From Acidobacteriota bacterium (GTDB lineage Bacteria; Acidobacteriota; Thermoanaerobaculia; Multivoradales; Multivoraceae): a stretch of DNA of 51,403 nt. The notes under the pieces are model-generated. The model ran no database searches and was not told the origin of the DNA. It saw only the letters and a list, made by a program, of their open reading frames with translations. The stretch lies in NCBI GenBank assembly GCA_011523565.1, contig WTGL01000027.1:661-52063 (forward strand), given 5' to 3'. Both the position numbers and the translations under genes were made by a program. Below are positions 23,614-48,790 of this stretch, piece by piece (the stretch's first letter is position 1; every line of letters starts with the position of its first letter).

Positions 23614-24231
23614 TTGATCGGCTACCTGCGCGGGCGTCGTCAGGCCCTGGGGCCCGAACTCCTGGTTCTCGACGTGGGCGGCGTCGGGTACTCCGTGCGC
23701 ATCCCGCTCTCGACCTGGTTCGAGCTGGACAAGCTGGAGGCCGGCGCCGAGTTCGGTCTTCACATCCACACCCACGTGCGCGCCGACGCGATCGAACTGT
23801 TCGGCTTCTGGACCGAGGCGGAGCGCACCCTGTTCGAACACTGCCTCGGCGTCAGCGGTGTCGGACCCCGACTGGCCCAGGTCGTTCTCTCCGGCGGTTC
23901 GACCGCCGACCTCCTGACGGCCATCGCCGGCGGCAACGTCGCCGCCCTGACCCGGATCCCGGGGATCGGCCGCAAGACGGCCGAGCGAATGGTTTTGGAG
24001 TTGAAGGAAAAGGCGAAGATGCTGCTGGCCGAGTCCGGCGTCGAACCGCCGCCGGCCGAGGCGGAGCCGGAGCTGGAAGACGACCAGGAGCAGGTCATCA
24101 GCGCCCTGCTCAACCTCGGCTACCGCCCGAACGAGGCCCGGCGCGCGGTGTCCCGCGTCCTCGCCGAGCACCCCGACGTCGAGTTCCAGGAGCTCCTCCG
24201 CCAGAGCCTGCGCCAGCTCTCCCGGCTCTGA
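23614..24231 (+). CDS. ruvA: Holliday junction branch-migration subunit RuvA
   Basis: DNA-binding tetramer that holds the Holliday junction for the RuvB motors. All three domains are present in 205 residues: OB fold (MIGYLRGRR to FGFWTEAER), tandem helix-hairpin-helix motifs (GVSGVGPRLAQ, IPGIGRKTAERMVLELKEK), an acidic flexible linker (about 148-160) and domain III (VISALLNLGYRPNEARRAV) that normally docks on RuvB. The start is TTG. The usual partner ruvB is not downstream on this strand but lies inverted beyond a repeat, and it lacks the hairpin that contacts domain III. Confidence 0.96.
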   Translation: MIGYLRGRRQALGPELLVLDVGGVGYSVRIPLSTWFELDKLEAGAEFGLHIHTHVRADAIELFGFWTEAERTLFEHCLGVSGVGPRLAQVVLSGGSTADLLTAIAGGNVAALTRIPGIGRKTAERMVLELKEKAKMLLAESGVEPPPAEAEPELEDDQEQVISALLNLGYRPNEARRAVSRVLAEHPDVEFQELLRQSLRQLSRL

Positions 24232-24261: not shown

Positions 24262-24464
24262 CACCCGCCCGTCTTGGGTCCGGAGGGGTCAGCTCCCAGG
24301 GTGACGTTCGCGCTTGAGAGGAGATGTGAGGGGATGGCACTCACTCCGCTTCACTCGCTCCGGTTGGGCGTCGGTGATTGCAACGTCGTTGGCCGTCGCT
24401 CGTTCAGAGGCACCTGGGAGCTGACCCCTCCGGACCCGACCGGGCTAGACGTCGTTGCCCTGAG
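24262..24464 (+). repeat. Palindromic repeat, copy R1 (forward)
   Basis: First of four related elements. The core 24277-24436 (160 bp) is bounded by a perfect 24-bp inverted repeat (24277-24300 and 24413-24436) beginning GGTCCGGAGGGG. Homology with the other copies continues outside the core: CACCCGCCCGTCTTGG on the left and the CGACCGGGCT...GTTGCCCTGAG arm on the right, where this copy stops early relative to R2 and R3. It starts 31 bases after the ruvA stop and ends 21 bases from the ruvB stop. No transposase is present. Confidence 0.9.
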
Positions 24465-24484: not shown

Positions 24485-25354
24485 TCAGAACAGGGTGCCC
24501 CGGACTGGCAGGTCCAGGTGTTCGTACGCTCGCTTGGTGGCCACGCGGCCGCGGCGGGTGCGCTGGAGGAATCCCTTCTGGACGAGGTACGGCTCGTAGA
24601 AGTCCTCGATGGTGCCCTCGTCTTCGCCGACCGACGCCGCGAGCGCCTTGAGGCCGGCCGGGCCGCCCCCGTACTGCTCGATCAGCAGTTTCATGATCCT
24701 GCGATCGATCTTGTCCAGGCCCTGCTCATCGACTTCCTGCTGAAGGAGAGCCTCGTTTGCGGTGTCGCGGTCGATCCGTCCGTCGGCTTCGATCTGCGCG
24801 TAGTCACGCACCCGGCGCAGCAGCCGGTTCGCAATCCTGGGCGTACCGCGGCTGCGCCGGGCGATCTCGTCGGCGCCACCCAGATCGACGGGCACTTCGA
24901 GCAGCTCGGCCGAGCGCTGGATGATCACGCTGAGCTGGAAGTCCTCGAGCGCCGGGTAGAGGATCTCCTCCACCGTCGGACCGAGACGGTGGATCTCGTC
25001 GATGAAGAGAACATCCCCGGGTTCGAGGTTGGTCAGGATCGCAGCCAGGTCGCCCGCCCGCTCCAGGACCGGACCGGACGTGGACCGCAACGCCGAACCC
25101 ATCTCCCGGGCGATGATGTGCGCCAAGGTCGTCTTCCCCAGCCCGGGGGGACCGAACAGCAGCACATGGTCCAGAGCTTCGCCCCGCCGGCGCGCCGCCT
25201 GCATGTAGATGTCGAGCAGCTCGACGATCTTCTCCTGCCCCAGGTACTCGCTCAGCCGCTGCGGCCGAAGCGACGGTTCGAGACGACGGTCCTCTGCGTC
25301 CCCGACGGCTGAGAGAACGCTCTCCTCACCGTCGGTGCCGCCCGTCCCGGCCAT
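24485..25354 (-). CDS. ruvB: Holliday junction helicase RuvB with a ~53-residue internal deletion
   Basis: AAA+ motor of RuvAB branch migration. The 289 residues carry clear RuvB hallmarks: [11 protein letters not shown], Walker [10 protein letters not shown] (69-77), [20 protein letters not shown], Walker [11 protein letters not shown] (115-124), [20 protein letters not shown], and the winged helix [15 protein letters not shown]. Between FQLSVI (139-144) and IQRSAELL (145-152), however, the family has about 53 more residues, carrying the RuvA-docking presensor-1 hairpin, the GATTR sensor 1 and the arginine finger of SPLRDRFG. Full-length relatives have about 340 residues. The frame is intact through the junction. 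Activity is therefore doubtful unless this is an assembly error. It is convergent with ruvA and flanked by inverted repeats R1 and R2. Confidence 0.92.
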
Positions 25355-25379: not shown

Positions 25380-25619
25380 CATGACACCGCCGCGGGCGTT
25401 GCAGGTCGGTGCCTTGCCTCAGGGCAACGACGTCCAGCCCGGTCGGGTCCGGAGGGGTCAGCTCCCAGGTGCCTCTGAACGAGCGACGGCCGACGCCCCC
25501 CACGCAACGGACGACCAACCGGAGCGAGTGAAGCGGAGTGAGCGCCATCTCCTCACATCTCCTCTGACGCGCTCACGTCACCTGGGAGCTGACCCCTCCG
25601 GCCCCAAGACGGGCGGGTG
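25380..25619 (-). repeat. Palindromic repeat, copy R2 (reverse)
   Basis: Reverse-oriented copy of the R1 element with a full right arm. The core 25446-25604 has inverted repeats 25446-25469 and 25581-25604 with one mismatch. The arm 25380-25445 extends to GGTGTCATG on the minus strand, as in R3. It lies 25 bases before the ruvB start and 91 bases before the thrA ATG, so it occupies most of the 356-base gap between these divergent genes. With R1 it forms an inverted pair around ruvB. The remaining 90 bases before thrA show no clear promoter. Confidence 0.9.
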
Positions 25620-25710: not shown

Positions 25711-28254
25711 ATGAAGGTCCTCAAGTTCGGCGGCTCCTCCGTGGCCGACGCAGCCCGGCTGCAGTCGGCTGCCCGGATCGTGTGCGGGCAACTGGAGAAC
25801 TCGGCTGCGGACGGGGCGGTGGTGGTGTCCGCCCTCGGAGGGGTCACCGACCGGCTGCTGGGGCTTGCCTCGGCCTGCCTCGAGGAGCGCGATCCGGCTG
25901 AGGCGGCTCGCGAGGTGGAGGCGCTTCGCGTCCATCACCTGGACATCGCGGCCGAGGTGGCGGCCGACGACGAGCAGCCGACGGTCGCGGCCACGGTCGA
26001 GGCCCTGTGCGACGACCTTGCATCGACACTGAGCGAGTGCGCGCCGGACGGCGCTGGCGACGGCCGTTCGAACGAGGCCCTGATCGACCGGATCGTCTGC
26101 CATGGGGAACTCCTGTCCACCCAGCTCCTGGCCGCCGCGCTGCGCGCCGAGGGCCTTCCAGCCGAGGCCTGCGACGCACGCCCCCTGGTCTCCACGGACC
26201 GTTCGTTCCAGGGGGCGACCGTCGATCTGGAACCGACTCTCCGGGCGATCGCCTCGCACTTCGCCGACCTCGGCGCCGGCGCCCCGCTGCAGGTGATCAC
26301 CGGCTTCCTCGGCAGCAGTCCGGAGGGCGAGACGACGACCCTGGGGCGCAGCGGCTCCGACCTCACCGCCGCCCTCGTCGGCGCCGCGCTGGATGCCGAG
26401 CGGATCGAGATCTGGACCGACGTTCCGGGCGTGATGACGGCCGACCCGCGGCGCGTGGAGGACGCCCTGCCGATCCCGCGGCTGAGCTACGAGGAGATGC
26501 TCGAACTCTCCCACTTCGGCGCCAAGGTCGTCTATCCGCCGACCGTGACGCCGGCGCGTCGCCGTGGCATTCCGTTGCTGGTCCGAAGTACCCTCGATCC
26601 CGAGCATCCCGGCACCCTGATCGACGACGACGAACTCGTCCGGGAAAGGGCCCGCGGCACCGCGGTCACCGGCATCTCCTCGATCGACGACGTCCACCTG
26701 ATGCTGCTGGTCGGCGACAACCTGGTCGGCACTCCGGGCGTTGCGGCCCGCCTCTTCGAGGCCCTCGCTGCGAGCGGAGCGAGCGCGATCCTGATCTCCC
26801 AGGCTTCGAGCGAGCACTCGATCTGCTTCGCGGTCGAACCCGGCGTTTCCGAGGCGGCGAGGAAGGCGGTGGACGCCGAGTTCCGGGCGGAGATCGCGGC
26901 CGGTTCGGTGCGACCCCTGAGGGTTGAGCGGGACCAGTCGATCGTTGCCGTGGTCGGCGACGGCATGCGGTACCGGCCGGGTATCGCCGGACGCGTGTTC
27001 GGCATCCTGGGCCGGCGCGGGGTGAACGTGCGGGCAGTGGCCCAGGGCTCGTCCGAACGGAACATCTCCATGGTCGTGGCCCGGGCCGACGAGGGGCGAG
27101 CGGTGCGCTGGATCCACCGGGAGTTCTTCCACGGCGCCGCCTCGGGGCGGCTCGCGGTCTATGTCCTCGGTGTCGGCGGCGTCGGCTCGGCGCTCCTGCG
27201 GCAGCTCGATGCCGAGCGCGAGTCCCTCGCCCGGCAGGGGATCGACCTGCAGTTGCGGGGCCTGGCCAGCTCTCGCTACATGCGCTTCGGAACCCGCCGC
27301 GGCAAGAGCCTGGACGCCGGCGCCGCGAGCGATCCCGACGGTTGGCGGTCCGAACTCGAGCGGAACGGCGAAGGAGCGGACCTGGACCGCCTGCTCGACC
27401 ACCTCGCCGAAACGGCGGCCGGCGGCGGCCGCACGGTGCTCGTCGACGTGACCGCCAGCGGCTCCATGGCCGCCGTCTACCACGGCGCGCTGTCCGCCGG
27501 CGCCGCGGTCGCCAGCGCGAACAAGCTGCCCTTCGCGGGACCGCTCCAGGACTTTCGCGCCTTCCGGCCGAACGGAGCGCAGAACGTCTTCCACGAGGCG
27601 ACCGTCGGTGCGGGCTTGCCCGTGCTCCACACCGCCGACATGCTGCTCGGCGCGGGCGACCGCATCGACACGGTATCCGGCGTGTTCTCGGGCACCCTCG
27701 CCTATCTGACCGGCAAGCTGGGCGCCGGCGCCGTCTGGAGCGAAGCGGTCCGCGAGGCCCACCGCCTGGGCTACACGGAACCGGATCCGCGAGACGATCT
27801 CGGCGGCCTGGACGTCGCTCGCAAGCTGCTCATCCTGGCGCGGATCTGCGGCTGCGAACTCGATCTGGACGACATCGAGGTCGAGCCCATGCTCGACCGG
27901 CCCGACCTGGCCGATCTGCCGCTCGACGGCTGGTGGGAACGGCTGGCCGAAGCCGACGGCGACATGGCGGACCGCTTCGCCGACGCCGCGTCGGCGGGGC
28001 TGGAACTTGCCTACCTGGCCGAACTCGACATGTCCGGCGAGACGGCCGCCGCCCACGTCGGACTGCGAGCCGTACCAGCCGACCACCCGGTCGCGGGCAT
28101 GCCGGCTTCGGACAACATGTTCGTGTTCCGCAGCCAGCGCTACCGGGAACGCCCCCTGGTCGTCCAGGGCCCGGGCGCCGGCACCGACCTGACCGCCGGC
28201 GGTGTCTTCGCTGACATACTTCGGGCTTGGAACGAGAGGGGCTCCGCCCCGTGA
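25711..28254 (+). CDS. thrA: Bifunctional aspartokinase / homoserine dehydrogenase
   Basis: Catalyses the first and third steps from aspartate to threonine. The 847-residue fusion starts with the aspartokinase domain (KFGGSSVAD at 5-13; [32 protein letters not shown]), has two ACT domains (about 325-460: [21 protein letters not shown] and [22 protein letters not shown]) and then the homoserine dehydrogenase domain from about 470 ([45 protein letters not shown]). ACT domains imply allosteric control by threonine. The ATG is used although no strong ribosome-binding site precedes it. First gene of the thrA-asd-thrB-thrC operon. Confidence 0.97.
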
Positions 28255-43879: not shown

Positions 43880-44980
43880 ATGTTGCAGTTAGTCCCTCCG
43901 GAGCGGCTCAGGGACGGGCTCCTGCACTGGTTTGACCGCTGGCGCCGCGACCTGCCGTGGCGTCGATCCGAGGATCCCTATGAGGTTCTGGTTGCGGAAG
44001 TCATGCTCCAGCAGACCCGCAGCGAGGTCGTGGCTTCGCGCTATCCGGGCTTCCTCGAGGGCTTCCCGACGCTCGATGCGATGGCCGAAGCCACGGTCGA
44101 GGAGGTGGAGGCAGCCTGGTCGGGCCTCGGCTACTACCGCCGGGCGCGGAACCTCCATCGTGCGGCCCGCATCCTGGCCCGACGTGCCGAGCTTCCCGGG
44201 AGCGCCGCGGAATGGAGCCAGTTGCCCGGCGTGGGCCCCTACACGTCGGCGCTGCTCGCCAGCCGTCTGCACGGTGAATGCGTGCCGGTGCTCGACGGCA
44301 ACGTGGAGCGCGTGCTGAGCCGGTTCCTGGCTTCCCCGTTGCCGCCCAGGCGGGCCGAGACCCGGCGGATCCTGCTAGCGACCGCGGCGAGGCTCCTGGA
44401 CCCGGAACGTCCCGGCGACTCGAATCAGGCCTTGATGGAGGTGGGATCGCTCGTCTGCCGGCACAGGCGCCCGGACTGCGGCGCCTGTCCGCTTTCTCCT
44501 GGATGTGCGGCCTTCAGCACCGCCGGACTGGATCCCCGGGACTATCCCGGCAGAGCTCGGGGTCGAGCTCGGGAGACCGTTCACTGCTTCACGGCCGTGG
44601 TCAGGAGGGATGGCGGCCTGCTGCTGCACCGCCGTCCCGGTGACGCGGAGTGGCTGGCCGGCCGCTGGCACCTGCCGACGGTCGAACTGGAGAGGGGGGA
44701 CGAGTCCGCGAGCGAGTCGGCGGCGCTGCTCGGCGAGGCGTTCGGGGGCGACTGGGAATGCGAGGATGGCGCCGTCGTTCGTCACGCGGTGACCTACCGG
44801 GACTTCTTCGTTCGGGTGGCTGTCGCCCGGTGGCGGCCTGACCCGGGGTTCGAGGTACCTTGCCCGCGGTCGGCCGCGGGTGAACTCGGGTGGTTCGCTC
44901 CGGAGGAGATCGACGAGCTGCCGACCTCGTCGCTGCTCCGCAAGTCGCTGGCTTCCATCCCAATACACTCCGGGCCATGA
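43880..44980 (+). CDS. mutY: Adenine DNA glycosylase
   Basis: Removes adenine opposite 8-oxoguanine. The 366 residues have the catalytic Glu40 (AEVMLQQTR), helix-hairpin-helix LPGVGPYT with Asp139 (VLDGNVERVLSR), the iron-sulfur cluster cysteines at 193, 200, 203 and 209 with C-X6-C-X2-C-X5-C spacing, and a C-terminal NUDIX-like domain (about 230-360) that recognises 8-oxoguanine. Divergent from dnaA; its stop overlaps the start of the DegT-family gene (ATGA). Confidence 0.96.
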   Translation: MLQLVPPERLRDGLLHWFDRWRRDLPWRRSEDPYEVLVAEVMLQQTRSEVVASRYPGFLEGFPTLDAMAEATVEEVEAAWSGLGYYRRARNLHRAARILARRAELPGSAAEWSQLPGVGPYTSALLASRLHGECVPVLDGNVERVLSRFLASPLPPRRAETRRILLATAARLLDPERPGDSNQALMEVGSLVCRHRRPDCGACPLSPGCAAFSTAGLDPRDYPGRARGRARETVHCFTAVVRRDGGLLLHRRPGDAEWLAGRWHLPTVELERGDESASESAALLGEAFGGDWECEDGAVVRHAVTYRDFFVRVAVARWRPDPGFEVPCPRSAAGELGWFAPEEIDELPTSSLLRKSLASIPIHSGP

Positions 44981-46179
44981 CGACGGTCACCGAGCGACGG
45001 CAGCCGATTCCCTTCATCGACCTGGCCGCTCAGTCGAGGCGGCTGCGGCCGGAGATCGATCGGCGGATCGCGGCCGTCCTCGACCATGGCCGCTACGTCA
45101 TGGGACCCGAGGTCGAGGAGCTGGAGGCTGAGCTCGGCAGGCTCGGCGGGGCGACGGCGGTGGCCGTATCGAGCGGTTCGGACGCCCTGCTGATCGCGCT
45201 GCTTGCACTGGGCGTCGGCCAGACCGAAGGGCGGCGGGACGCGGTGTTCGTTCCGTCCTTCACGTTCACGGCGACGGCGGAAGTCGTCCTGCTTGCAGGC
45301 GCCGTCCCAGTGTTCGTCGACGTCCGGGAGGATGACTTCCTGCTCGACATGGGTTCCCTCGAGCGAGAGTTCGAGACGCTGGAGCGGGCCGGCGGCGCCG
45401 TCCCCCGGGCAGTCATCAGCGTCGACCTGTTCGGCCAGCCGATGCCCCGGCAGCCGCTGGCCGACTGGGCGGCTTCGAGGGGGCTGGAGGTTGTCTCGGA
45501 TGCCGCGCAGAGCTTCGGGGCCCGTCGCGGCGGGCGGCCCGTGGGGTCGCTGGCCGCCGTGACGACGACCAGCTTCTACCCCGCCAAGCCGCTCGGCGCC
45601 TATGGCGACGCCGGGGCGATCTTCTGCACGGAACCGGCCGCCGCCGAGGTCGTGCGTTCGATGCGCGAGCACGGCCAGAGCGCCGACCGCTACGACATCG
45701 TGCGGCTGGGGATGAACGGCAGGCTGGACACCCTGCAGGCCGCCGTTCTGCTGGCGAAACTGACGATCTTCGAGCAGGAACTGGCCGCCCGCCGCGCGGT
45801 CGCCGCCGGCTACACCAGGAGGCTGAGCGCGACGTCCGCGCCGATGGGCACGCCCTGGCGCGTCGCCGTGCCGGTGTGCGAACCCGACGTGGATTCGAGT
45901 TGGGCCCAGTACACGCTGCGGGTCGACGACGCGGACGGAAGGCCGTCCGCGGAGACACGGAACGCCCTGCGCGCCCACCTGGCACGGGCCGGCATTCCGA
46001 CCGCGGTCCACTACCCGCTGCCGATGCACCTGCAGCCAGCCTACGAACCGCATGGCCGTGGTCCGGGATCGCTGCCGGTCAGCGAGAGCCTGGCCGACCG
46101 GGCCGTCAGTCTGCCCATGCACCCCTACCTCGACGAGTCGACGCTCGACCGCATCTGCGAGCGCATCGCGACCGCTTAG
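44977..46179 (+). CDS. DegT/DnrJ/EryC1 family sugar aminotransferase
   Basis: PLP-dependent aminotransferase of the family that adds amino groups to nucleotide-linked keto-sugars for surface glycans. The 400-residue protein begins at an ATG overlapping the mutY stop. IPFIDLAAQSRRLRPEI, VSSGSDALLIALLALGV, the PLP-contacting SDAAQSFGA (Asp175), and the PLP lysine in SFYPAKPLGAYGDAG (Lys204) are typical of WecE/WbpE-like members. The exact sugar substrate is unknown. No other sugar-pathway gene is adjacent, and the coupling to mutY is probably just compact packing. Confidence 0.92.
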   Translation: MTTVTERRQPIPFIDLAAQSRRLRPEIDRRIAAVLDHGRYVMGPEVEELEAELGRLGGATAVAVSSGSDALLIALLALGVGQTEGRRDAVFVPSFTFTATAEVVLLAGAVPVFVDVREDDFLLDMGSLEREFETLERAGGAVPRAVISVDLFGQPMPRQPLADWAASRGLEVVSDAAQSFGARRGGRPVGSLAAVTTTSFYPAKPLGAYGDAGAIFCTEPAAAEVVRSMREHGQSADRYDIVRLGMNGRLDTLQAAVLLAKLTIFEQELAARRAVAAGYTRRLSATSAPMGTPWRVAVPVCEPDVDSSWAQYTLRVDDADGRPSAETRNALRAHLARAGIPTAVHYPLPMHLQPAYEPHGRGPGSLPVSESLADRAVSLPMHPYLDESTLDRICERIATA

Positions 46180-46180
46180 C

Positions 46181-46283
46181 GTCGAGCTGCACCCGCGGGG
46201 GCGTCGGACGCACCCGCGGGGACGTCGGCTGCACCCGCCTGGCGTCGGACGCACCCGCCTGGCGTCGGACGCACCCGCCCGTC
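46181..46283 (+). repeat. Short tandem repeat, five ~20-22 bp units
   Basis: Five consecutive units of the form GTCGGACGCACCCGCCTGGC, 20-22 bp each, run from just after the DegT-family stop into the left edge of repeat R3. The last unit is the conserved CACCCGCCCGTCTTGGG flank of the repeat family. Units differ at 1-4 positions. R1 has one such unit before it and R4 a second GACGGGCGGGTG after it, so this outer flank seems prone to duplicate. Confidence 0.85.
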
Positions 46284-46512
46284 TTGGGTCCGGAGGGGTC
46301 AGCTCCCAGGGTGACGTGAGCGCTTGAGAGGAGATGTGAGGGGATGGCGCTCACTCCGCTTCACTCGCTCCGGCTTGGCGTCGGTGAGTGCAACGTCGCC
46401 GGGCGTCGCTCGTTCAGAGGCACCTGGGAGCTGACCCCTCCGGACCCGACTGGGCTGGACGTCGGTGCCGCGAGGCGAGGCACCGACCTGCAACGCGCGC
46501 GGCGGTGTCATG
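46272..46512 (+). repeat. Palindromic repeat, copy R3 (forward, full length)
   Basis: Full-length 241-bp copy. The core is 46287-46446 (160 bp) with perfect 24-bp inverted repeats at 46287-46310 and 46423-46446, and a nested 8-bp stem GTGAGCGC/GCGCTCAC at 46316-46323 and 46347-46354. The right arm adds a hairpin with stem GTCGGTGCC/GGCACCGAC and ends at GGTGTCATG. The 387-base gap between the two aminotransferase genes is filled by the tandem units and this element; only about 55 bases remain before the next start codon. Confidence 0.9.
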
Positions 46513-46566: not shown

Positions 46567-47877
46567 ATGGCTGCTTCCCGTTCGCACGGACTCGACAGCG
46601 GCGATCGGCTGCCGTATGTCAGAACGTCGGTTCCGGGGCCGCGTGCGCGGAGGGCGGCCAGGCGGCTCGAAGGAGCTGAGGCGCCGGGGATCAACACCCT
46701 GGTCGCCGGAAGCACCGCGATGCTGTGGGAGGCGGCGCTCGGCAGCAACGTGCTGGATATCGACGGGAATCGCTATCTCGACCTGACGGCTGGATTCGGG
46801 GTTGCCGCAGTGGGCCATCGGCATCCCGCTGTGGTCTCGGCGGTCAAGCGGCAGGCGGACCGCCTTCTTCACGGGTTGGGTGACGTGTTTGCGCATCCTT
46901 ACCGTCTGGAATTGAGCGAGCGTCTGGGTCGCCTGGCGCCGCTCCGCGAGCCGCAGGTCTACTTTGCCGCCTCTGGAGCCGACGCGGTGGAGATCGCGCT
47001 CAAGACAGGGCGCCTCTACAGCGGCCGTCCTGGAATCCTCGCGTTCACGCCGGCCTACCACGGCACCACGTTGGGGGCCCTCCAGGGCACTTCGAGGCCG
47101 GCTTTTCGAAGCCCCTTCATCGAGCCACTCGAGCATCTGGTTCACCGTTTGCCCTACGGCGCGGCAGCTGAAGAGGTGCAGCAACTCCTGGAACAGCAGC
47201 CGGAGATCGGAACCTGCCTGGTCGAACCCGTGATCGGCCGCGAGGCCACCCGATGGCCTCCTCCGGGCTGGTTGGCCGCATTGGCCGCGGCATGCCGTGA
47301 GCACAAGGTGGTTCTGGCAGTCGACGAGATCTTCACCGCGTTCGGCCGCTGCGGGGAGTGGTTCGTCAGCGCGGAGGCGGGTATCGAGCCCGATCTCATC
47401 TGCTGCGGCAAGGCCCTGGGCGGCGGTCTTCCGATCGCCGCCGTGATCGGTGAGAAGGACGTCCTGGCCGCTTGGCAAACGGAGGGCGAGGCTCGCCACA
47501 CGGCGACATTCGTCGCGCACCCACTCGCCTGCGCGGCGGCTCTCGCGACACTCGATGTGATCGAGAGTGAGGGGCTGGTGCAGCGGGCCCAGGAGATGGG
47601 CAGACGTTTGGGCCACCGCCTGGAACCACTCAAGCAGCACCCCGTCATCGTCGATGTCCGAGGAAAAGCCCTCTTGTGGGGCGTGGAACTCGATACACCG
47701 AAACGCGCGCCCGGTCTCTGTCGGCAACTCCTGGAGCGTGGCGTGATCGCCCTGAGCGGGGGTGCAACCGGCACCGTGGTGCAGATCGCGCCACCGCTGG
47801 TGGTCACCGAGCGCCAACTCGACTACGCGGCAGATTCTCTGGTCGAGGCTGCTCTTGGCATGTGTTCCGACTCCTAG
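46567..47877 (+). CDS. Class III PLP-dependent aminotransferase
   Basis: Fold-type I aminotransferase of the acetylornithine/4-aminobutyrate/ornithine class, 436 residues from the ATG at 46567. Signatures: LDIDGNRYLDLTAGFGVAAVGHRHP, FAASGADAVEIALK, AYHGTTLGAL, the PLP-binding AVDEIFTAFGRCG (Asp253), the PLP lysine in CCGKALGGGLPIA (Lys282) and HTATFVAHPLACAAAL. Substrate cannot be assigned; homologues occur in lysine, GABA, diaminobutyrate and secondary-metabolite pathways. In-frame ATGs exist upstream inside repeat R3. Flanked by inverted repeats R3 and R4 with no other gene between them, so it forms a single-gene cassette like that of ruvB. Confidence 0.9.
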   Translation: MAASRSHGLDSGDRLPYVRTSVPGPRARRAARRLEGAEAPGINTLVAGSTAMLWEAALGSNVLDIDGNRYLDLTAGFGVAAVGHRHPAVVSAVKRQADRLLHGLGDVFAHPYRLELSERLGRLAPLREPQVYFAASGADAVEIALKTGRLYSGRPGILAFTPAYHGTTLGALQGTSRPAFRSPFIEPLEHLVHRLPYGAAAEEVQQLLEQQPEIGTCLVEPVIGREATRWPPPGWLAALAAACREHKVVLAVDEIFTAFGRCGEWFVSAEAGIEPDLICCGKALGGGLPIAAVIGEKDVLAAWQTEGEARHTATFVAHPLACAAALATLDVIESEGLVQRAQEMGRRLGHRLEPLKQHPVIVDVRGKALLWGVELDTPKRAPGLCRQLLERGVIALSGGATGTVVQIAPPLVVTERQLDYAADSLVEAALGMCSDS

Positions 47878-47957: not shown

Positions 47958-48157
47958 CTTGGCAACGACCGCCAGCCCAGTCGGGGCCGGAGGGGTCAGC
48001 TCCCAGGTGCCTCTGAACGAGCGACGCCTGACGACATTGCGGTCACCGACGCCCAACCGAAGCGAGTGAAGCGGAGTGAGCGCCATCCCCTCCCATCTCC
48101 TCTCAAGCGCTCACGTCACCTGGGAGCTGACCCCTCCGGCCCCAAGACGGGCGGGTG
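47958..48157 (-). repeat. Palindromic repeat, copy R4 (reverse)
   Basis: Reverse-oriented copy with the best-preserved ends: 27-bp perfect inverted repeats at 47983-48009 and 48117-48143. The short left arm (47958-47982) diverges early from R2 and R3. A second GACGGGCGGGTG lies about 40 bases beyond the right end. It fills most of the 325-base gap between the aminotransferase stop and the recR stop. With R3 it brackets the aminotransferase gene. Confidence 0.9.
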
Positions 48158-48202: not shown

Positions 48203-48790
48203 TCAGAGAGAACGGCGGCCGGCCAGGGACCGCGCCAGGGTGACCTGGTCGGCGTAGTCGATGTCGCCGCCGACGGGGAGGCCGAAGGCGAGGCGGGTGA
48301 CGCGGACGCCGCGGCGGGCGAGGAGGTTGGCCAGGTAGAGGGCCGTGGCTTCGCCTTCGACGTTCGGGTTCATCGCCAGGATCGCTTCTTCGATGCCGTC
48401 GAGGCGGTCCAGGAGGGAGGCGACCGTGAGTTCGTCGGGTCCGACGCCTCGCTGGGGCGAGAGGGAGCCCAGGAGTGCGTGGTAGAGGCCGTGGAACTCA
48501 CCGGTGCGCTCAATCGGTTCGATGTTGAACGGCTCCTCGACGACGCAGAGCTTGGTTCGGTCGCGCTGCGGGTCGTCGCAGATCGAGCAGGGGTCCACCG
48601 CGGTGATCTGGTGACAGGTCGAGCAGTGGATCATGCGGTCCTTGACGTCGATGACCGCCTGGGCGAGCGCTTCGGCCCGGCTCCGGTCGGCGCGGAGCAG
48701 GTGGTGCGCCAGTCGCCGGGCGGTCTTCGGGCCGATGCCCGGCAGGCGCGAGAGCTCCTCGACCAGGCTGGAGAGCGGATCGGCCGGCAT
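48203..48790 (-). CDS. recR: Recombination mediator protein RecR
   Basis: Works with RecF/RecO to load RecA on gapped DNA. The 195 residues have the helix-hairpin-helix LPGIGPKTARRLAHHLL, a zinc finger with Cys56, Cys59, Cys68 and Cys71, and a TOPRIM domain (LCVVEEPFNIEPIERTGEFHGLYHALLG). Its ATG shares one base with the ybaB stop (TGATG). Third gene of dnaX-ybaB-recR. Confidence 0.97.
   Translation of the reverse strand: MPADPLSSLVEELSRLPGIGPKTARRLAHHLLRADRSRAEALAQAVIDVKDRMIHCSTCHQITAVDPCSICDDPQRDRTKLCVVEEPFNIEPIERTGEFHGLYHALLGSLSPQRGVGPDELTVASLLDRLDGIEEAILAMNPNVEGEATALYLANLLARRGVRVTRLAFGLPVGGDIDYADQVTLARSLAGRRSL

Follow-up and report, generated by a model that had tools for sequence, protein, structure and literature searches.

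The window analysed in this study is a stretch of 51,403 nucleotides from an Acidobacteriota bacterium (hereafter, the source genome). It carries four copies, R1 to R4, of a palindromic repeat that I call element E. The genes and features are arranged as follows.

23614..24231, plus strand: ruvA (Pfam RuvA_N, RuvA_C), outer neighbour of the ruvB pair and reference for orientation
24262..24451, plus strand: R1, element E adjoining ruvA, with the outer end CACCCGCC at 24262 (covariance model 197.8 bits; DNA fold z = -7.1)
24485..25354, minus strand: ruvB (Pfam RuvB_N, AAA_lid_4, RuvB_C), enclosed by R1 and R2 and inverted relative to ruvA in the source genome
25380..25430, minus strand: right-hand tail of R2, of the same sequence family as the R3 tail
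25431..25619, minus strand: R2, element E adjoining thrA and inverted partner of R1 (covariance model 189.4 bits; DNA fold z = -5.9)
25711..28254, plus strand: aspartate kinase-homoserine dehydrogenase gene (thrA-like; Pfam AA_kinase, Homoserine_dh), outer neighbour of the ruvB pair
44977..46179, plus strand: DegT/DnrJ/EryC1-family aminotransferase gene (Pfam DegT_DnrJ_EryC1), outer neighbour of the R3/R4 pair, syntenic in five species
46184..46271, plus strand: tandem CACCCGCC..GCGTCGGACG units left of R3, putative scars of collapsed E (left end plus right end), with similar scars in relatives
46272..46461, plus strand: R3, element E in the spacer between the DegT-family gene and the aminotransferase gene (covariance model 202.7 bits; DNA fold of 46266-46512 z = -6.9)
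46462..46512, plus strand: right-hand tail of R3, a GGTGCC..GGCACC hairpin ending GGTGTCATG, common to R2 and to copies in the genomes G007, G013, and G015
46567..47877, plus strand: class-III aminotransferase gene (Pfam Aminotran_3), enclosed by R3 and R4
47969..48157, minus strand: R4, element E in the spacer between the aminotransferase gene and recR, inverted partner of R3 (covariance model 200.5 bits; DNA fold z = -6.8)
48203..48790, minus strand: recR (Pfam RecR_HhH, Toprim_4, RecR_C), outer neighbour of the R3/R4 pair

All four copies were found where a sequence-only reading of the window had placed them. Their terminal inverted repeats are perfect or carry one mismatch, as that reading described (25/25 in R1 and R3, 27/27 in R4, 26/27 in R2). 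The nested GTGAGCGC/GCGCTCAC stem that it noted in R3 is also present in R2 and R4 and is lost from R1, and the final GGTGTCATG common to R2 and R3 closes a further shared stretch of about 50 bp. As single-stranded DNA, R1 to R4 fold with z = -5.9 to -7.1, and none of 200 shuffles was equally stable. What had been missed is the orientation: R1 and R3 lie on the plus strand, and R2 and R4 are reverse-oriented. Thus, the four copies form two inverted pairs, R1(+)/R2(-) around ruvB and R3(+)/R4(-) around the aminotransferase gene. This gene-enclosing inverted pairing, overlooked before, is the main finding of this study.

E proper extends from CACCCGCC to GGCTGGACG and includes a short conserved right end (KCGTYGG); it is about 190-200 bp in length, with arms of about 38 bp. 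The conserved flanks that had been taken as a sign of a larger unit hold up on the right-hand side, where some copies have a common tail. On the left-hand side there are short units resembling the scars of collapsed copies, and much of the left flank is of this E-derived kind. The tandem units left of R3 are best read, from their left-plus-right make-up, as collapsed E copies. Two other observations were made on the window. The RuvB encoded at 24485-25354 is 289 aa in length; compared with its 343-aa counterparts in relatives, 54 aa are missing in frame, through either a real deletion or an assembly error. A tRNA-Pro called by ARAGORN at 48653-48726 on the plus strand, within recR and without Rfam support, is probably a false call.

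How widespread is element E? A covariance model was built from 13 copies. In the 3.7-Mb source genome, about 35 high-scoring copies were found with this model, and each of 20 congeners has from 7 to over 40 copies. Outside the genus, E is nearly absent, with a few weak matches in 39 genomes of other genera. The sequence-only reading named, as grounds for its own refutation, a total of just four copies without structure-preserving changes; these numbers and the massive covariation described below clearly show otherwise. In a collection of named genomes, the conserved internal pattern of E matched 44 stretches, all of them in Acidobacteriota MAGs by title (Acidobacteria, Holophagales, Vicinamibacteraceae, Thermoanaerobaculia, and "Candidatus Multivorans thiocomprendens"). 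From the record titles and general knowledge, I take the E-bearing Acidobacteriota to be sponge symbionts. E is non-coding, short, dispersed, and intergenic, and it has inverted terminal arms, features that it shares with MITEs. I read it as a genus-specific, MITE/REP-like palindromic element. Some copies have peculiarities of their own. Two of them (L011:1501-1755 and L023:742-1000) have the same insert of about 70 bp in the left part, composed of two perfect hairpins (CCGTGCGCCCG.. and GGGTGGCGCG..), and a similar double hairpin is found to the right of E in L055. The flanks of an E copy at G013:C69:48566-49199 are 100% identical to those in the source genome, far above the usual divergence of the two genomes, which possibly indicates a recent transfer or contamination.

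The inverted pairing is common in the genus. In seven genomes, 17 of the 19 pairs of E copies lying no more than 2 kb apart are in the +- arrangement (same ends outward), and there is no -+ pair. The same genes are found enclosed in one species after another (ruvB, a gene of the ApbE family, one with TPR repeats, and the aminotransferase gene), so that the 17 pairs are not independent and represent about seven separate loci. Same-orientation copies with a constant spacing of about 3.5 kb also exist (G008:C8 75109/78799, G010:C1 2225064/2228754, and G005:C12 203655/207371).

Are the enclosed genes found in both orientations? With one genome per species, the variation seen here is between species only. 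ruvB is inverted relative to ruvA in eight of the 21 species (G000, G001, G003, G006, G010, G013, G015, and G019) and co-directional in 13. On a RuvA+ThrA tree of the 21 species, at least seven changes of ruvB orientation are required, at least five of which are forced by well-supported branches. The orientation label is no more clustered on the tree than shuffled labels are, and the orientation is not the same in G007 and G015, which are sister species. The G007 assembly has the ruvA-ruvB locus on two contigs (G007:C30 and G007:C167), both co-directional, reflecting either a strain mixture or a duplication. The aminotransferase gene is inverted in G016 and G009. It is absent from its place in G015, in which a hybrid E with two outer-type ends stands where E-gene-E would be. 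Import of a gene cassette was considered and rejected for ruvB and for the aminotransferase gene, both of which are in syntenic places.

As a control, 39 window genes were checked for order and orientation against the regions of synteny in G015, G020, G016, G007, and G010. All are collinear, and orientation changes were found only for ruvB (in G020, G016, and G007) and for the aminotransferase gene (in G016), with none for the 37 others. These two are precisely the genes inside E pairs among the 39. It could be argued that assemblers are unable to orient a segment of about 1 kb between near-identical inverted repeats of about 190 bp, and that the inversions are assembly artefacts. The repeats are indeed longer than short reads, and the contigs of G009 break at E in the aminotransferase region. 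However, ruvB is inverted in G001, G003, and G013 even though E has collapsed into a short scar at one or both ends of the gene, and the inverted aminotransferase gene of G016 keeps only a 23-bp remnant of E. Moreover, the G020 assembly consists of one contig of 4.63 Mb, those of G016 and G010 contain very large contigs, and both orientations are represented among the three. Thus, an artefact is unlikely as a general explanation, and I give it very little credence, although single genomes could still be wrong.

If the two copies of a pair recombine, they should resemble each other. At ruvB, the left and right copies within a genome are 92.3% identical on average (range 81.8-96.8), compared with 87.3% for same-side copies between genomes, and between genomes the same-side identity equals the opposite-side identity. 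The averages hide the spread of these values; ruvB is co-directional in all three genomes with the most divergent pairs (81.8-89.8%). In contrast, the within-genome identity of the ApbE and TPR-gene pairs is 79.9%, versus 88.9% and 84.7% for same-side copies between genomes. These pairs have kept their orientation in five and four genomes, respectively, so that an E pair is not sufficient for inversion. The two E copies at ruvB are thus homogenised, as expected if recombining, and those of the unflipped ApbE and TPR-gene pairs are not. In this comparison, exchange between copies goes with flipping; either a gene can flip because its two copies are alike, or the flips keep them alike. In G007, G015, and the source genome, the outer ends of E stay with the ruvA/thrA flank and the tails stay with ruvB, which places the breakpoints inside E. 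From this strong comparative evidence, E pairs are likely sites of repeated single-gene inversions. I consider it probable that E is a genus-specific palindromic element and that recombination between the two members of an inverted pair is what turns single genes round.

The absence of -+ pairs is not predicted by homologous recombination alone and counts against this explanation. The fixed orientation of the pairs would suit a dedicated recombinase that reads the folded or double-stranded E and inverts the segment between two copies, as in phase-variable invertons. The repeated switching of ruvB, the conserved secondary structure, and the conserved internal sequence in the second branch of E (CTCGCTCCGG..GTCGCT) are also in line with such a site. 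On the other hand, no recombinase gene lies beside E in the loci read, and the pairs of diverged copies are unflipped, which fits homology-dependent exchange better. I consider a dedicated recombinase unlikely. Equally speculative is the bolder idea that E pairs are a dedicated gene-flipping system, possibly with a genus-specific recombinase, which keeps single genes, ruvB above all, switching within populations. If this were true, Holliday-junction processing would be phase-variable.

Where did E come from? Many congeners have a spacer of about 19 bp without E between the DegT-family gene and the aminotransferase gene, and the junction is clean there in G013. Thus, E probably entered this spacer in the source lineage. 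The empty-site query took in nine of 14 prepared loci, and the other "empty" sites are scars, such as CACCCGCCGGGC|CGGGACG, or are occupied by another repeat family. At the one clean empty site (G013), no target-site duplication was found. A transposase with E ends was not found among the Y1 transposases and IS1182-like elements of the genus. Of the 21 genomes, 12 have a RAYT-like Y1 transposase gene (L179-L191), and E is not nearby: there were no E matches around 13 RAYT-like genes in the 12 genomes, and the source genome has none of these genes. Several genomes with many E copies have no RAYT-like gene at all. In most of these loci, the gene lies amid numerous copies of another small repeat (TGGGTGCG plus hairpins), on which ground a RAYT origin of E was rejected. 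The RAYT-like gene and the TGGGTGCG repeat probably constitute a REPtron. An IS1182-type MITE was also rejected, as the IS1182-like elements of the genus end in TAGTGTCTGCCAGAAAAC, which is unrelated to E. Identity to a known IS-derived MITE, raised in the sequence-only reading as a point against its own proposal, was likewise not found.

These data bear on another view, in which the pairs and inversions arise directly from intramolecular replicative transposition of E, as a MITE or repeated transposon end (an adjacent inversion with duplication of the element), and not from later recombination between resident copies. A single step would then explain why neighbouring copies are inverted and have the same ends facing inward, and the probable entry of E into the DegT-aminotransferase spacer agrees with mobility. 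However, each event would create a new pair, while the same ruvB pair persists across the genus through at least seven flips of the gene. The homogenised ruvB copies also speak against this view, as do the results of the searches for a transposase and a target-site duplication. I regard it as unlikely, and recombination between E copies is preferred as the origin of the inversions.

E folds into a branched hairpin, a long stem with two branches. In an alignment of 82 copies to the model, 93.7% of the cells pair, and 41 of the 59 base pairs show double compensatory changes. Double changes were found in 672 cells, compared with a mean of 213 after shuffling (none of 500 shuffles was equally good), and every slid control collapsed; these covariation counts lean toward the structure to which the alignment was fitted, and the cells of related copies are not independent events. 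Independently of the model alignment, the arms are visibly different from copy to copy, yet complementary within single copies. Stem 8, the tip of the second branch, is weakly supported, has many G.T columns, and is not counted as established.

Is the fold that of an RNA or that of DNA? The sequence-only reading left room for a structured RNA. E might be a transcribed element, such as a terminator or an mRNA-stabilising 3′ element, that is kept for its RNA fold, with the gene inversions being incidental. Its position agrees with this: 63 of 85 copies follow the stop codon of a gene in the same orientation, with the left end of E at a median distance of about 28 nt, by codon-usage gene calls (a simple open-frame test is not discriminating in a GC-rich genome). 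The plus-strand RNA fold is also the more stable one in nearly all copies. However, a fold conserved at the transcript level would be expected to enrich the good stems for wobble pairs on one of the strands, and they show no such enrichment. In stems 1-7, G.T occurs 26 times and A.C 41 times among about 3,600 cells, with the exclusion of two polymorphic columns that hold many G.T. The corresponding counts for the outer arms, taken over 88 copies, are 31 G.T and 49 A.C. E has no match to any Rfam family at gathering score, and orientation changes are limited to E-flanked genes. Thus, an RNA element is highly improbable, and the well-supported stems point to DNA. The other proposal of the sequence-only reading, a protein-binding or structured DNA element, fits these results. 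Arm-to-arm correction or selection on DNA hairpins would explain the complementarity of the arms, and the data agree with both.

The mechanism may be pictured as follows. E, when single-stranded or extruded, would fold into the long stem carrying two branches. Inversion would then occur by recombination between two E copies, either as homologous recombination of the RecA type over about 190 bp, mostly 90-97% identical, or as a switch of strand or template where the hairpins are extruded. Deletion between the palindrome arms would collapse E into scars and could remove the enclosed gene, as may have happened in G015. The arms would be kept complementary by correction or selection at the DNA level.

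Palindromic repeats of this kind and inversion between inverted repeats are already known. The nearest described kind is the TIRtron repeats, TIRs that flank RAYT-like tyrosine transposase genes and have also been described from Acidobacteria (Di Nocera et al. 2013, PMC3733652). Like E, they are dispersed, partly self-complementary, and also found without a transposase, and the R-type arm of E contains GGGGTCAG, which fits the TIRtron GGGGWSAS motif. The defining link to a tyrosine transposase was sought for E and not found: no E was found in the flanking sequences analysed for the RAYT-like genes of the genus, where the other repeat family resides. Unlike TIRtron repeats, E pairs enclose host genes, and E is about 190 bp in length with a branched fold. 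CGTC-tagged REPs (PMC3733652) are also intergenic palindromes, mostly downstream of genes and without a dedicated transposase. They are hairpins of 20-40 bp with stems of 8-9 bp, in contrast to the outer arms of about 38 bp and the two branches of E, and the resemblance of the E end GGACGKCGTC to the CGTC tag is weak. IS1272 (IS1182 family), with its inverted-repeat-replacing insertion (PMC5678879), makes no target-site duplication, and none was found at the one clean empty site of E; it resembles E in sites just downstream of genes and in a left-end tandem duplication, but differs in the ends of the IS1182-like elements noted above.

Bacterial MITEs (ERIC, NEMIS/Correia, RUP, and Nezha) are, like E, non-coding, about 100-300 bp in length, dispersed between genes, and bounded by inverted terminal arms. 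E differs from them in that its arms vary between copies yet stay complementary, and in that the searches of Y1 and IS1182-like elements and of insertion sites gave neither a parent transposon nor a target-site duplication. As in invertons, a segment bounded by inverted repeats is found in both orientations, here for ruvB and the aminotransferase gene and between species. Unlike in invertons, E pairs enclose a whole housekeeping gene, and their repeats are long dispersed palindromes common to several loci. In a further contrast to invertons, I know of no recombinase for E pairs. As far as the open-access literature was searched, the E family has no published description and is a new one, and the combination seen in E pairs and its focus on ruvB are undescribed.

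It is rare that a cause can be assigned to the inversion of a single gene. In the present chromosomes, collinear in all other respects, only the genes enclosed by E pairs flip, so that micro-inversion driven by repeats becomes countable and testable for a repair gene of wide distribution. The E family is also a natural data set of palindromes that stay complementary amid sequence change and that collapse into scars. It bears, in addition, on the question of whether the orientation of a gene relative to its operon matters.
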